From contig JAKAZZ010000003.1 of the NCBI GenBank assembly GCA_021826315.1, forward strand, positions 20,373-84,372: a DNA stretch of 64,000 nt. The letters are read 5' to 3'. Below the pieces are notes generated by a model. The model saw only the letters and a program-made list of their open reading frames with translations, searched no databases and was not told where the DNA came from. The translations under genes and the position numbers were made by a program. The stretch is from Actinomycetes bacterium (lineage in GTDB: Bacteria; Actinomycetota; Acidimicrobiia; Acidimicrobiales; Acidimicrobiaceae). The stretch's first letter is position 1. Each line of letters opens with the position of its first letter. Positions 39,876-61,863 of this stretch are shown one piece after another.

Positions 39876-39923
39876 GTGAAAAGTTTTGTCTCGACCATTG
39901 TCGTAGTACTAGTAGTTATGTAG
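39876..39923 (+). CDS. Putative ilvBNC leader peptide MKSFVSTIVVVLVVM
   Basis: GTG AAA AGT TTT GTC TCG ACC ATT GTC GTA GTA CTA GTA GTT ATG TAG: 8 of 15 residues are Val/Ile/Leu; followed by two strong hairpins, the second with a U-tract, upstream of ilvB. Not in the ORF track. Confidence 0.75.
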   Translation: MKSFVSTIVVVLVVM

Positions 39924-39957
39924 CGCCTCGAGAGGCTTCTCTCGGGCGCGCTACACG

Positions 39958-39982
39958 AACCTCCCAAATGGGAGGTTTTTTT
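39958..39982 (+). terminator. Rho-independent attenuator terminator before ilvB
   Basis: AACCTCCC-AAAT-GGGAGGTT followed by a run of T. Confidence 0.85.
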
Positions 39983-40032
39983 GTATTTCACGACAATCGA
40001 AAAGCAATTGCAGTTGTTTAGGAGTGGCTCAC

Positions 40033-48010: not shown

Positions 48011-48070
48011 TCTGATGTCGCCTTTCGATTACAGATTTCCACTTGGTTGAAACTTTGCCGTAAATAAAAA

Positions 48071-48102
48071 AACCTCCGTGTTCAAAATTGAACGCAGAGG
48101 TT
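48071..48102 (-). terminator. Attenuator terminator before leuA
   Basis: Minus strand AACCTCTGCGTTCAA-TT-TTGAACACGGAGGTT followed by a T-run (A-run on plus at 48066-48072). Confidence 0.8.
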
Positions 48103-48128
48103 AGTGCGGTTCTCGGTGAGAGCCGCAC

Positions 48129-48170
48129 TCAAAGTAGGGATAGTAGTAGACCGAATTGATTTACAACCAT
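48129..48170 (-). CDS. Putative leuA leader peptide MVVNQFGLLLSLL
   Basis: Minus strand ATG GTT GTA AAT CAA TTC GGT CTA CTA CTA TCC CTA CTT TGA: 5 Leu codons in the last 6 sense codons; followed by a 12-bp stem hairpin and a terminator. Not in the ORF track. Confidence 0.82.
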   Translation of the reverse strand: MVVNQFGLLLSLL

Positions 48171-55752: not shown

Positions 55753-56217
55753 ATGAGTCAGACACTAACAAGACAAGCCTATGAGAGATTGGTCGCCGAA
55801 TTAGACGAGCTGACCACTAGAGGTCGTATCGATATAGCTCGTGTCATTGAAGAGGCTCGCGCACTCGGTGACCTTAGGGAAAATGGCGACTACCACGCCG
55901 CGAAAGATACGCAGGGCAAGATGGAGGCGCGGATTCGCCAGATCGAATCCATACTAAAAGATGCAATCGTGCTTGACGGCGCTGAGGTTCGTGACGATAT
56001 ATCCGTAGGATGCGTTATCACACTTCGTTACGTCGGGGATGAAGATACGGAGGAGTACTTCTTCGGATCTATCGAAGAGAAGCGTGAGGGGATGGGAACA
56101 CTTTCACCGTCGAGCCCGTTAGGTCAATCGATCGAAGGAAAAAAGGTGGGAGATATCGTCTCTTATCAAGCTCCTGGAGGCGAACTTCAAGTCGAAGTTG
56201 TAGCGATCGACCGTTAA
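55753..56217 (+). CDS. greA: Transcription elongation factor GreA
   Basis: ARALGDLRENGDYHAAKDTQGKMEARIRQIESILKDA; SPLGQSIEGKKVGDIVSYQAPGG. Confidence 0.95.
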   Translation: MSQTLTRQAYERLVAELDELTTRGRIDIARVIEEARALGDLRENGDYHAAKDTQGKMEARIRQIESILKDAIVLDGAEVRDDISVGCVITLRYVGDEDTEEYFFGSIEEKREGMGTLSPSSPLGQSIEGKKVGDIVSYQAPGGELQVEVVAIDR

Positions 56218-56263: not shown

Positions 56264-56292
56264 TTGTACGCAAGGCCTTCGGATGCTAGGAT
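56264..56292 (+). promoter_or_regulatory. Candidate promoter of the leuB-ilvE-cimA leader transcript
   Basis: TTGTAC (56264-56269), 17-bp spacer, TAGGAT (56287-56292). Confidence 0.45.
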
Positions 56293-56331
56293 TAGACGAA
56301 ATTTGTTGTTAATAAACTCAGTGAGGGTTTG

Positions 56332-56370
56332 TTGAGCTCGATAATCGTATCGTTCGGAGTAGTGATTTAA
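56332..56370 (+). CDS. Putative leuB-ilvE-cimA leader peptide (M)SSIIVSFGVVI
   Basis: TTG AGC TCG ATA ATC GTA TCG TTC GGA GTA GTG ATT TAA preceded by GAGGG; 6 of 12 residues Ile/Val; followed by a 14-bp hairpin and a terminator. Not in the ORF track. Confidence 0.75.
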   Translation: MSSIIVSFGVVI

Positions 56371-56406
56371 AGAGCTTGTGGTTCACAAAGGTGGATCACA
56401 AGCTTT

Positions 56407-56438
56407 GACCGGCCACGTGAAAGTGGACGGTCTTTTTT
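56407..56438 (+). terminator. Attenuator terminator before leuB
   Basis: GACCGGCCAC-GTGAAA-GTGGACGGTC (one mismatch) followed by TTTTTT; preceded by hairpin AGCTTGTGGTTCAC-AAAG-GTGGATCACAAGCT (56373-56404). Confidence 0.85.
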
Positions 56439-56483
56439 ATTTCTAAAGAAAGACGATCGCTGTAAATCTGGGGGTTATAACTC

Positions 56484-57509
56484 GTGCATAAGATTGCACT
56501 AATTGGTGGAGACGGCATAGGTCCAGAAGTTGTGGACGAAGCGATGCGCGTGGTAGCTGCCACGAAAGTACCTTTTACAACTTCTTCTTACGATCTCGGA
56601 GCGGCAAGATACATCAAGGATAAAGTCGTACTTCCAGACGAGACACTTGCTGAGCTTCGTGGTTTCGACGCGATCATGCTCGGAGCTATTGGTCCGGCAA
56701 TTGGTTCCAAGGAAGTTCCATCAGGAATACTCGAGCGAGGCCTGCTATTGAAGCTGCGCTTCGAACTTGACTTGTATATCAATCACCGTCCATTCATAAC
56801 TCCACCCACTGGTAACGGTGGTCGTTTTGAAGATGTTGATTTTATCGTTATTCGCGAGAACACCGAAGGCACCTATGCGGGTGAGGGTGGGCTGTTGAGG
56901 CGAGGTACTCCTCACGAAATCGCTACCCAAGGTTCTGTAAATACAAGGTTCGGGGTTGAGCGTGCAATTAGGTATGCCTTTGAATTGGCAAATTCGCGTC
57001 TTCGTAAACACCTCACCTTGGTTCACAAGACAAATGTCCTTACCTTTTCGGGTGACCTATGGCAGCGCACCTTCGACGAGGTATCCAAGGAGTATCCAGA
57101 TGTTGCGACGGCATACAATCACGTCGACGCAGCTTGCATTTATATGGTTGACTCCCCGAGCCGTTACGACGTCGTAGTTACCGACAATCTCTTTGGAGAC
57201 ATCATCACGGATCTCGCAGGAGCAATCTCGGGCGGGATCGGCCATGCAGCTTCGGCGAACTTGAATCCAGCTCGTACCGGCCCTTCCTTGTTCGAACCAG
57301 TACACGGCGCCGCTCATGACATAGTTGGCACTGGAAAGGCAAATCCAATCGCAGCGATTCGATCAGCTGCGCTCATGCTCGATTTTCTAGGCGAAGGCAA
57401 AGCCGCCAAAGCCATCTTCGACGTTCTTGGTCAATACAGTCCAAATTCGACAATGACAACATCTGAAATTGGAAATGAAATAGCAGAAAGGGTAGCAAAT
57501 GCCAATTGA
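56484..57509 (+). CDS. leuB: 3-isopropylmalate dehydrogenase
   Basis: IALIGGDGIGPEVVDEAMRVV; VTDNLFGDIITDLAGAISGGIGHAASANLNP. Confidence 0.93.
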   Translation: MHKIALIGGDGIGPEVVDEAMRVVAATKVPFTTSSYDLGAARYIKDKVVLPDETLAELRGFDAIMLGAIGPAIGSKEVPSGILERGLLLKLRFELDLYINHRPFITPPTGNGGRFEDVDFIVIRENTEGTYAGEGGLLRRGTPHEIATQGSVNTRFGVERAIRYAFELANSRLRKHLTLVHKTNVLTFSGDLWQRTFDEVSKEYPDVATAYNHVDAACIYMVDSPSRYDVVVTDNLFGDIITDLAGAISGGIGHAASANLNPARTGPSLFEPVHGAAHDIVGTGKANPIAAIRSAALMLDFLGEGKAAKAIFDVLGQYSPNSTMTTSEIGNEIAERVANAN

Positions 57510-58422
57510 GAAGAGTGGTTATATTTGGATGAACGGTGAGATCAAAGCGTGGGATGAGGCAAACATTCACGTTCTGACTCACGGTCTTCACTACGGCTCT
57601 GGTGTCTTCGAAGGTATTCGCGCCTATAAAACCCCGACTGGAACTGCCGTCTTTCGTTTGGTAGATCACATCGACAGACTCTTCCAATCTGCGAAGATCT
57701 TTATGATCGATATTCCATTCACTCGTGACGAGCTTGTAGATGCAACCCTTGAACTGGTTAAGAAAAATGCCCTCGAAGAGTGCTACATTCGCCCTATTGT
57801 CTACCTCGGTTACGGCGAAATGGGGCTAAACCCTCTTGCTTGCAAGGCTGATGTATCTATAGCCGCATGGAAGTGGGGGACTTACCTTGGAGCCGAGGGA
57901 GTCGCTAAGGGTATCCGGCTGAAGATTAGCTCGTGGGTGCGTCACAACCCCAACTCGCTACCGCCAGCAGCTAAGGGTACTGGAATGTACATTAACTCAT
58001 CGCTTGCGAAGGTAGAGGCCGTCAAGGCTGGATACGACGAGGCGATCCTCCTCTCGCCACAGGGATATGTCTCTGAGTGCACAGGAGAGAATGTCTTCGT
58101 AGTACGCAAGGGCAAGGTCTACACACCTCCTACGTCCGCTGGTGCGCTTGAGGGAATTACTCAATCTACGGTGGGCGCCCTCGCAAATGACCTTGGTTAC
58201 GAGGTAGAGGTTGCTAACCTACTCCGCTCCGATCTGTACACCGCAGAAGAGATATTTGTCTGTGGTACCGCTGCTGAAGTAACTCCTGCGGTGTCGGTCG
58301 ACGATCGCATCGTCGGCGACGGCGTTCCAGGTGTCTTTACCAAGGCTATCCAAGCCGCCTACTTCAAGGCAGTTCATGGAGAGTCTGATGACCACAAGGA
58401 GTGGCTAGATTATGTCGGCTGA
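57499..58422 (+). CDS. ilvE: Branched-chain amino acid aminotransferase
   Basis: HGLHYGSGVFEGIRAYKT; GYDEAILLSPQGYVSECTGENVFVVRKGKVYTP. Confidence 0.95.
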   Translation: MPIEKSGYIWMNGEIKAWDEANIHVLTHGLHYGSGVFEGIRAYKTPTGTAVFRLVDHIDRLFQSAKIFMIDIPFTRDELVDATLELVKKNALEECYIRPIVYLGYGEMGLNPLACKADVSIAAWKWGTYLGAEGVAKGIRLKISSWVRHNPNSLPPAAKGTGMYINSSLAKVEAVKAGYDEAILLSPQGYVSECTGENVFVVRKGKVYTPPTSAGALEGITQSTVGALANDLGYEVEVANLLRSDLYTAEEIFVCGTAAEVTPAVSVDDRIVGDGVPGVFTKAIQAAYFKAVHGESDDHKEWLDYVG

Positions 58423-60001
58423 GATCGACTTTGCGTTACCTTCTAGTGTTGACATCTACGATACGACACTTCGAGATGGCTCACAACAAGAGGGTATCTC
58501 GCTTACAGTCGATGACAAGTTGAAAGTTGCAGAGCAGCTAGATCGCCTCGGGGTTCGTTTTATTGAAGGCGGATGGCCTGGGGCGAACCCCAAGGACATT
58601 GAGTTCTTTAGGAGGGCTCCCAAGGAGCTCTCCTTCAATGTTGCAACTTTGGTTGCATTTGGATCTACGATGAGGCCAGGGGCGGATCCGAGCAAAGACG
58701 AAACTCTTCGGAACATGCTTGACTCCGAGACTGAAGCAGTCTGCATGGTAGCCAAGTCCTGGGACTACCACGTCACTGAGGCTCTTCGAACCACCTTAGA
58801 TGAGGCTGTTCGCATGGCCGAGGAGTCGGTAAAGTACCTAGTCGAGAGGGGTAGGCGGGTATTTTTCGACGCCGAGCACTTCTTTGATGGATATCGAAAC
58901 AATCCAGAGTTTGCCCTTAGGGTTCTCAAAGCTGCGGAAAATGGTGGTGCATCGACCTTGGTCCTTTGCGATACCAACGGTGGAACCTTGCCACACCAAG
59001 TCTCAAAGATCGTCTCGACCGTAAAGTCGACGACGGATCTTCAGATCGGTGTTCACTTTCACAATGACTCCGGTTGCGCTACTGCAAATGCTCTTACCTC
59101 TGTTGAATTGGGAGCAACACACGTCCAGGGTTGTATCAACGGTTATGGTGAGCGGACGGGAAACACCGACCTCTCGGTGACTATCCCTAACCTTTCGCTC
59201 AAGATGGGTATCGATACGATCCCCCGCGAGCGGATCTCGCTTATCACTTCGGTATCTCGCCACGTAGCTGAAGTCATAAACATCGCTACTGATCCGCAAA
59301 AGCCCTACGTTGGCACTTCGGCTTTTACGCATAAAGCCGGTCTTCACGTGAGTGCAATAGCGCGTCGCAAGGATGCATATGAGCACATTGCTCCGGAGAC
59401 CGTTGGTAACGGAACCCGATTTGTAGTCTCCGAAATGGCCGGTCGATCAACCGTTGCCATCAAAGCCTCAGAGCTTGGGATCGAACTTGACAAGGACCAG
59501 ATCGCAACGGTCTTGGACCACTTGAAGGTACTCGAGCATCAGGGCTATCACTTTGAGACAGCCGATGGATCGCTTGAACTACTCCTTCGCAGGGCGACAG
59601 GCTGGGAACAGAAGTACTTTGAGGTCGAATCCTTCCGAGTCATCAACGATTGCCGTGCTGAAGGCGAGCCAAATACTGAGGCTACGGTGAAGCTTTGGGT
59701 AAATGGAACAAGGGTCGTCGACACTGCCGAAGGAAACGGTCCGGTCAATGCTCTTGACGGAGTTCTTCGCAAGGGATTGGCTCAGGATTACCCCACTCTT
59801 TCAGGCGTCCACCTCACAGACTTTAAAGTCCGTGTCCTCGATTCAACTAGCGGTACCGGGGCCAAAGTTAGAGTGCTGATTACCTCGAGCGACTCAAATG
59901 GCCAGTGGACGACAATTGGAGTATCATCGAATGTCATAGACGCCTCGTGGCAGGCGCTGCAAGACTCGATAGTCGTCGGACTTCTTCGCGCTGAAGCCTA
60001 G
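58412..60001 (+). CDS. cimA: Citramalate synthase
   Basis: VDIYDTTLRDGSQQEGISLTVDDKLKVAEQLDRLGVRFIEGGWPGANPKDIEFF; GVHFHNDSGCATANALTSVELGATHVQGCINGYGERTGNTDL. Confidence 0.93.
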   Translation: MSAEIDFALPSSVDIYDTTLRDGSQQEGISLTVDDKLKVAEQLDRLGVRFIEGGWPGANPKDIEFFRRAPKELSFNVATLVAFGSTMRPGADPSKDETLRNMLDSETEAVCMVAKSWDYHVTEALRTTLDEAVRMAEESVKYLVERGRRVFFDAEHFFDGYRNNPEFALRVLKAAENGGASTLVLCDTNGGTLPHQVSKIVSTVKSTTDLQIGVHFHNDSGCATANALTSVELGATHVQGCINGYGERTGNTDLSVTIPNLSLKMGIDTIPRERISLITSVSRHVAEVINIATDPQKPYVGTSAFTHKAGLHVSAIARRKDAYEHIAPETVGNGTRFVVSEMAGRSTVAIKASELGIELDKDQIATVLDHLKVLEHQGYHFETADGSLELLLRRATGWEQKYFEVESFRVINDCRAEGEPNTEATVKLWVNGTRVVDTAEGNGPVNALDGVLRKGLAQDYPTLSGVHLTDFKVRVLDSTSGTGAKVRVLITSSDSNGQWTTIGVSSNVIDASWQALQDSIVVGLLRAEA

Positions 60002-60567: not shown

Positions 60568-61218
60568 TGTTTGAGGGTGAATAGCCCTCTGGTGTCTGCT
60601 TGCTTAGCGATCTATTAATGAGAGCGAGTATCGAAAGTTAGGCGCGGTCGGATTGACCACAGGAGTCGATACGTCGACGCCGAACAAATAGAGCGTTTTG
60701 TCGGTGAAACTCTCACTCCGCCGATCGACGCAGCTATTGCGAAAATCTAACAAAGATATAGAGATGTAACTGATTGGATGCACTGTGTATCGATCCAGAA
60801 ACCTCATTATGCGACTCGAAAGATGTTGCGGGCAATTTAGGTAAGCTCCACGAGCAACGAGCCGTAACACCACACTCTTTGGTTTTTTGCGTTCAACTAC
60901 TGGGGATATCAAAAGCTCGACGAGCTTCTCGTAAGGTGAGCGTAGGATCGATTAAAAACCGAGATAAATACACTGACACTTCGACCAACTCCCGTAAAGG
61001 TCACGTGCCTATGAGCCAGAGAGTCACGCTTTCACTCGTTCTGTTCGGAGGTTTTGAGTCGCGGATTGAATGGATTTCGGGAATGTGGAGGCTTTGGAGC
61101 GATCCAACATCTTCGAGACTCTAAAAAATGCTTGCAACGCTTATATTTCCTGTTGGACTCCCTCCTACCTTTATGTTTGCTGGCTCAGCCGGCGGAACTT
61201 CGACGTCTACTTCCGGAC

Positions 61219-61863
61219 TTATCGACCCCAATCACGAAAGCAAAGCTATCGCTTCGTGACTTTGATCATCAGGTTTCCAACAAGGCGGCCAATCACGTCA
61301 TTAGCCACAACACCGCCAGAGTTATAGTTGGTGACGTGAGGGGTATTGAGAAGGAGACCAAGTCCAAGCGGCGCATGGGCCGCCACTGTCGTCAACAACT
61401 GTCCCAGTGGTCGAGAGCTCGACAGGAACGCTACCTCAAAGACACGACCGGATTAGACCTAGATTTCTTGAACGAATCGGGTTCAACCAAGACCTGTCCA
61501 GCGTGCTTGACACGCAATCGACCATCAGGTCGACACTACCGATGCAAGAACACTATTTGTGGTTTTACTTGTCATCGAGACGCTGTAGGAGCGATCAATA
61601 TCCTCCAGAAGGCGTTATGCGGGGAATACACTCCAATTGGACCGGACATAAAAGTCCGAGTCACGTATCTCCGGGCTGTTGAGCGCTGGTCCCCTGATCA
61701 ACGTGAAGCACACCGCAAGGTGCAGTGCCGCAAGGCCAGAGCCCTGAGTAGTGCCCAGAACCGGGCCTTGTCTGAGGCAACTCAGATTAGCAAGCCGAAG
61801 CTAGCAAACTCATCCACCAGTACCGATTCATCGGTACCAGACCAGTTGGTCGTGGTGGCGTGA
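61219..61863 (+). pseudogene. TnpB/OrfB-like (IS200/IS605-type) RNA-guided nuclease, N-terminally truncated
   Basis: LSLRDFDHQVSNKAANHVISHNTARVIVGDVRGI (RuvC-II region); STKTCPACLTRNRPSGRHYRCKNTICGFTCHRDAVGAINI (zinc ribbon and RuvC-III). No RuvC-I-like segment upstream; ORF track ORF is 61054-61863. Confidence 0.8.

Follow-up and report, generated by a model that had tools for sequence, protein, structure and literature searches.

The genes leuB, ilvE and cimA lie on the plus strand of the window, i.e. the whole stretch of 64,000 nucleotides analysed here, and are preceded by a leader region (56264-56483). This region is situated between leuB and the co-oriented greA, which ends at position 56217, 114 bp 5' of the leader. 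The identities of the three genes were assigned with NCBIfam models, and all three scored over the respective cut-off (Table 1). A preliminary description of this DNA had taken them for an operon making leucine, isoleucine and valine intermediates; the genes were confirmed as named, but the mixed function was not the best reading. CimA, LeuCD and LeuB together convert pyruvate and acetyl-CoA to 2-oxobutyrate, the precursor of isoleucine. In the genome to which the window belongs (assembly 90% complete), no protein exceeded the cut-off set for a biosynthetic threonine deaminase (full-length IlvA), and the regulatory domain of threonine dehydratase was absent; within the genus, this domain was detected only in Acidithrix ferrooxidans. 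The genome may encode a short threonine dehydratase devoid of the regulatory domain, or the gene may be missing from the assembly. Given that no recognisable biosynthetic IlvA is present, the best reading of leuB-ilvE-cimA is that of an isoleucine operon which, together with leuCD, would serve the citramalate route. An open reading frame at 61054-61863 (plus strand) is possibly a transposon remnant; by eye, its C-terminal part (CPACLTRNRPSGRHYRCKNTICGFTCHRDAVGAINI) resembles the zinc-finger end of TnpB/IS200-IS605 OrfB.

Table 1. Coordinates of the leuB leader, the downstream genes and the related leaders in the window.
Feature	Position	Strand	Basis or remark
Candidate promoter TTGTAC-N17-TAGGAT	56264..56292	+	Seen in the sequence; similar hexamers in the two closest relatives
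Candidate Shine-Dalgarno (GAGGG region) of the leuB leader	56323..56328	+	Sequence; kept in two relatives
Leader peptide ORF (M)SSIIVSFGVVI	56332..56370	+	TTG start, 12 codons, stop TAA 56368-56370; frame conserved over 94 distinct leaders
Switch hairpin A:A' (putative)	56371..56406	+	16 bp, loop of 4; fold, covariation, spacing
Intrinsic terminator T:T' with T6 (predicted)	56407..56438	+	No gap to hairpin A:A'; stem paired in 34 of 34 aligned relatives
leuB, 3-isopropylmalate dehydrogenase	56484..57509	+	NF002898, 465.6 bits (cut-off 393)
ilvE, branched-chain aminotransferase	57499..58422	+	NF005146/TIGR01122, over cut-off
cimA, citramalate synthase	58412..60001	+	TIGR00977, 681 bits (cut-off 450)
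Paralogous element before ilvB: leader VKSFVSTIVVVLVVM with stop, hairpin, terminator	39876..39983	+	Covariance model R1, 28.1 bits, E 5e-6
leuA leader layout: leader MVVNQFGLLLSLL with stop (48170-48129), hairpin, abutting terminator	48065..48170 (end approximate)	-	Sequence

The TTG-start reading frame of 12 codons with GAGGG upstream, as first described, was found in place, and its last control codons, GTA GTG ATT, stand immediately 5' of the stop codon. The hairpin and the terminator with its T6 run reported earlier are likewise both present, but the hairpin comprises 16 bp in the minimum-energy fold (arms 56371-56386 and 56391-56406) and not 14. Its first base is the one next to the leader stop codon and lies 6 nt 3' of the position where the last Ile codon begins. 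The terminator arms (56407-56416 and 56423-56432) contain one internal mismatch, and the T run occupies 56433-56438. Overall, the leader folds 5.8 standard deviations below dinucleotide shuffles. The promoter proposed earlier is readable, and by eye its counterpart in the two closest relatives is TTGAAG or TTGAAT before TAAGAT; it was, however, not flagged by the consensus scan. Because simple consensus scans of the window flagged neither promoter nor terminator, the case for the leuB element is built on conservation and comparison. Conservation extends to the sequence of the terminator, which is specific to the operon, being ACCGnCCAC...GTGGnCGGT before leuB and GACCTCCC...GGGAGGTC before ilvB; no reason for such conservation of the terminator arms (56407-56432 in the window) was found.

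For comparison, leuB was located in 60 relatives, the DNA upstream was read, and 34 elements were aligned to build covariance model R1. Compensatory changes were observed in 12 of the 19 pairs, both stems covary, and none of 500 shuffles reached the observed covariation score. Standard pairs occupied 96.4% of the cells; for shuffles this share was 84.4%, and sliding gave no more than 49%. The preliminary description had proposed a search for the same leader before leuB or cimA in related genomes and would have taken its absence from homologous loci as a strike against the idea; a search with the model retrieved the element from 142 of 248 genomes of the order (106 had no match) and from 182 of 394 genomes of the class Acidimicrobiia. 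A phylum-wide sample of 247 genomes yielded only three matches outside the class, all weak. The nearest named relative carrying the element is Acidithrix ferrooxidans, and the other matches belong mostly to Acidimicrobiaceae, Ilumatobacteraceae and related groups. Three genera of the organism's own family retain leuB without the element (nine loci), which indicates that it was lost or replaced there. Within the literature available for searching, no description of a leuB or cimA leader, nor of an attenuator in Acidimicrobiia, was found.

Placement of the element was inspected in 90 cases: 72 were situated before leuB, 17 before ilvB and one before cimA. In six Acidimicrobiia MAG records of Ilumatobacteraceae type, the element lies between ilvE and cimA. 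Two Actinomadura genomes and one Streptosporangium genome each contain a single match, which directly precedes cimA. The element thus accompanies the citramalate gene or the operon to which this gene belongs. By eye, the leaders in the six MAG records terminate in stretches like AIIIIR or AITIIC, i.e. with Ile and without Val.

Codon usage was determined for 94 distinct leuB-type leaders, with leuB, ilvB and ilvE of the same loci serving as reference. In frame, the last six codons were 36% Ile, 23% Val and 3% Leu, as opposed to no more than 2% Ile and 1% Val when the same stretch was read in the other two frames. Ile occupied codon -2, the second-last sense codon, in 88 leaders. A citramalate route to isoleucine leads one to expect Ile codons as sensor and explains the near-absence of Leu codons. 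Val was encoded by GTA in 65% of cases (3.4% in the neighbouring genes) and Ile by ATT in 51% (9.7% in the neighbouring genes). As GTA (26%) and ATT (36%) are not rare in the genome studied here, as checked within the window, an argument from codon rarity is valid for the GC-rich relatives only. Control codons that are read by sensitive tRNA isoacceptors are a known design principle (PMC1183508). The 17 ilvB leaders mostly end in Leu-Val-Val-Ile/Val-Thr.

In 59 of the 94 leuB leaders a -10-like hexamer precedes a possible start codon by 4-10 nt; TTGAC was present upstream in 45 leaders where 4.3 were expected. Translation of a leaderless RNA is therefore probable in many relatives and has been reported for other leader peptides of Actinobacteria (PMC8079986). 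The window differs from these relatives in that its leuB leader has a candidate Shine-Dalgarno sequence.

The distance between control codons and hairpin was then compared within the leuB set. Counted downstream from the first base of the stop codon, the hairpin begins at a distance of 0-2 nt where the last Ile is codon -2, and mostly at 4 nt where it is codon -1. Most leaders of both groups thereby share a distance of 6-8 nt between the last Ile codon and the hairpin, although the codon -1 group is largely one clade and does not stand for many independent events. The median gap between hairpin and terminator is 2 nt. Counted from the first base of the P-site codon, a stem-loop at a distance of 11-12 nt is located at the mRNA entry of the ribosome and slows A-site binding (PMC7282821); a distance of 7-8 nt past the A-site codon corresponds to 10-11 nt by that count.

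Taken together, the leuB leader is predicted to attenuate transcription of leuB-ilvE-cimA in a ribosome-mediated manner, in response to the supply of charged tRNA-Ile (and tRNA-Val), a reading to which we assign a probability of roughly three in four. Both hallmarks of ribosome-mediated attenuators were found, namely a reading frame with codons for the product of the operon (94 leaders) and a predicted intrinsic terminator with a conserved stem ahead of the first gene. A leader-peptide attenuator tuned to Ile and Val, as put forward in the preliminary description, fits all comparative evidence. The comparison shows the leader with its control codons, the two hairpins with their spacing, the linked genes and the absence of an antiterminator pairing.

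In the proposed mechanism, a ribosome would translate the short reading frame as the leader emerges from RNA polymerase. If Ile or Val were in short supply, the ribosome would wait on one of the last control codons, and hairpin A:A', which starts just ahead of its mRNA entry, would stay folded. Folded against the terminator stem, A:A' would hinder closure of the lowest terminator pairs in the exit channel of the polymerase and allow readthrough. A ribosome that finishes translation would, at the stop codon, reach into or cover the 5' arm and presumably melt the hairpin. Starvation is thus predicted to cause readthrough at the leuB leader. Hairpin A:A' and the terminator share no bases, so the energy model offers no ground for their mutual exclusion and the steric step is one that we infer; that the abutting hairpin physically blocks the terminator is possible, at somewhat less than even odds. 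It is conceivable, and put forward more tentatively, that the branched-chain attenuators of Actinobacteria form a distinct class in which the fate of the terminator is set by the intactness of an abutting, independent hairpin located 6-8 nt past the last control codon, with the mRNA entry acting as sensor. If so, an untranslated leader would permit expression, opposite to what holds for E. coli trp.

The opposite outcome for an untranslated leader is predicted if hairpin A:A' assists termination, as in tandem hairpins, and is opened by a ribosome waiting on the last Ile codon, so that termination decreases. Such an arrangement would need no antiterminator, the hairpin does adjoin the terminator, and 4-6 bp would be opened if the ribosome footprint extended 12-13 nt beyond the A site. 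Adjacent hairpin clusters have also been proposed to act as terminators and to aid termination (PMC8355165). The spacing of 6-8 nt, however, puts the hairpin at the mRNA entry and not inside it. Moreover, the reading frame of mycobacterial ilvB leaders extends into the 5' arm and has its stop codon in the loop, so that the finishing ribosome would open the hairpin most, which gives the wrong sign. We consider assisted termination unlikely.

The classical trp-type scheme, in which the 3' arm of the hairpin (region 2) pairs with the 5' arm of the terminator (region 3) when the ribosome stalls, shares with the leuB leader the leader peptide, the two hairpins and the terminator of enteric attenuators, and a weak, short alternative pairing does exist in the window. 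In 100 leuB elements, however, these two arms folded less well than their shuffles (-4.2 versus -6.0 kcal/mol; no element with p<0.05). With the ribosome on codon -5, codon -2 or the stop codon, the terminator arm paired upstream with 1.1, 1.9 and 5.2 of its 10.6 bases, respectively, as compared with 4.2-4.4 in shuffles. The same test recovered the antiterminators of E. coli trp (5 of 8 bases), leu (6 of 10) and thr (7-10 of 10), with more stable folds. An antiterminator excluding the terminator via its 5' arm was thus not found in the leuB element, and a trp-type switch appears improbable. Pairing of region 1 with region 4 was also considered and rejected, its energies of about -4 to -13 kcal/mol being no better than those of shuffled arms (mean p 0.39). 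Neither terminator arm paired with the leader coding region or the downstream RNA above the level of shuffles.

Two further explanations can be dealt with briefly. That hairpin and terminator merely form the 3' end of greA, with a short reading frame arisen by chance, is suggested by the co-oriented greA just upstream in the window, but in most relatives greA is divergent or located elsewhere while the element stays with leuB or cimA, and the leader frame and its Ile codon are conserved; synteny leads us to reject this explanation, as the element is not lost where greA is not co-oriented. Direct sensing of Ile by a T-box or another riboswitch would suit a position before an amino-acid operon, and actinobacterial ileS genes do carry T-boxes (PMC1262725), yet no Rfam family, T-box included, reached its gathering score within the window, and conservation is confined to stems and reading frame, without an unpaired core, so that this too is very remote.

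The leuB attenuator had been counted as the third in this stretch, and both others were located, one before ilvB and one before leuA (Table 1). In all three, hairpin and terminator abut (gaps of 0, 1 and 0 nt for leuB, ilvB and leuA, respectively). The hairpin of the ilvB leader includes the stop codon, and its terminator reads ACCTCCC...GGGAGGT; relatives, too, conserve this core ahead of ilvB, and it resembles the anti-Shine-Dalgarno sequence. The leuA leader, with the codons CTA CTA CTA ... CTA CTT, is a leucine version of the layout seen before leuB.

Among known systems, the actinobacterial ilvB leaders (PMC13236596, PMC1262725), including the Corynebacterium ilvB-II motif (PMC10272879), resemble the leuB element in their short uORF rich in branched-chain codons, their terminator and their GTA/ATT control codons, and paralogues of the leuB element precede ilvB in the same genomes. 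Control codons for branched-chain amino acids directly before a terminator-abutting hairpin are common to both; in its position, however, the copy studied here differs, as it precedes leuB while the paralogue precedes ilvB. It serves leuB-ilvE-cimA (or cimA) and senses Ile and Val without Leu. In ilvB leaders of Mycolicibacterium, Nocardia and Gordonia (four loci), the hairpin was found 7 nt after the last control codon with a gap of 0-1 nt to the terminator; the Mycolicibacterium leaders, folded here, thus match the leuB element in spacing and abutment. The uORF of the leuB element ends at the base of the hairpin, whereas that of mycobacterial leaders ends in the loop. M. tuberculosis ilvB1 is induced upon AHAS inhibition, and changing LVVI to AAAA abolishes the response (PMC13236596); induction upon limitation has the same sign as proposed for the leuB leader. 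The published model of ilvB1 invokes two mutually exclusive structures (PMC13236596). With the ribosome at the last control codon, no upstream pairing of the terminator arm was found in mycobacterial-type ilvB leaders, and the same abutting hairpins lacking a partner for the terminator arm in the four loci call that model into question.

Enteric trp, leu and thr attenuators share with the leuB element a leader peptide with codons for the end product beside an intrinsic terminator, but differ in having the antiterminator pairing to the terminator 5' arm. The LEU element before actinobacterial leuA (PMC1262725) also involves a branched-chain leader peptide; by its description it is a pseudoknot whose base stem covers the leuA Shine-Dalgarno sequence, whereas the leuB element has a terminator with a T run and lies before leuB.

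By these comparative data, the leuB element is well explained as an isoleucine-tuned addition to the leader attenuators of branched-chain amino acid synthesis in Actinobacteria. It would place a widespread, isoleucine-tuned control on the threonine-independent (citramalate) route to isoleucine. Separate leaders exist in the same cluster, that of leuA with Leu codons and that of ilvB with Val, Leu and Ile codons, and every operon apparently responds to its own amino acid products. The leuB and the mycobacterial ilvB1 leaders pose a common question, namely how hairpins that do not compete for bases switch transcription.
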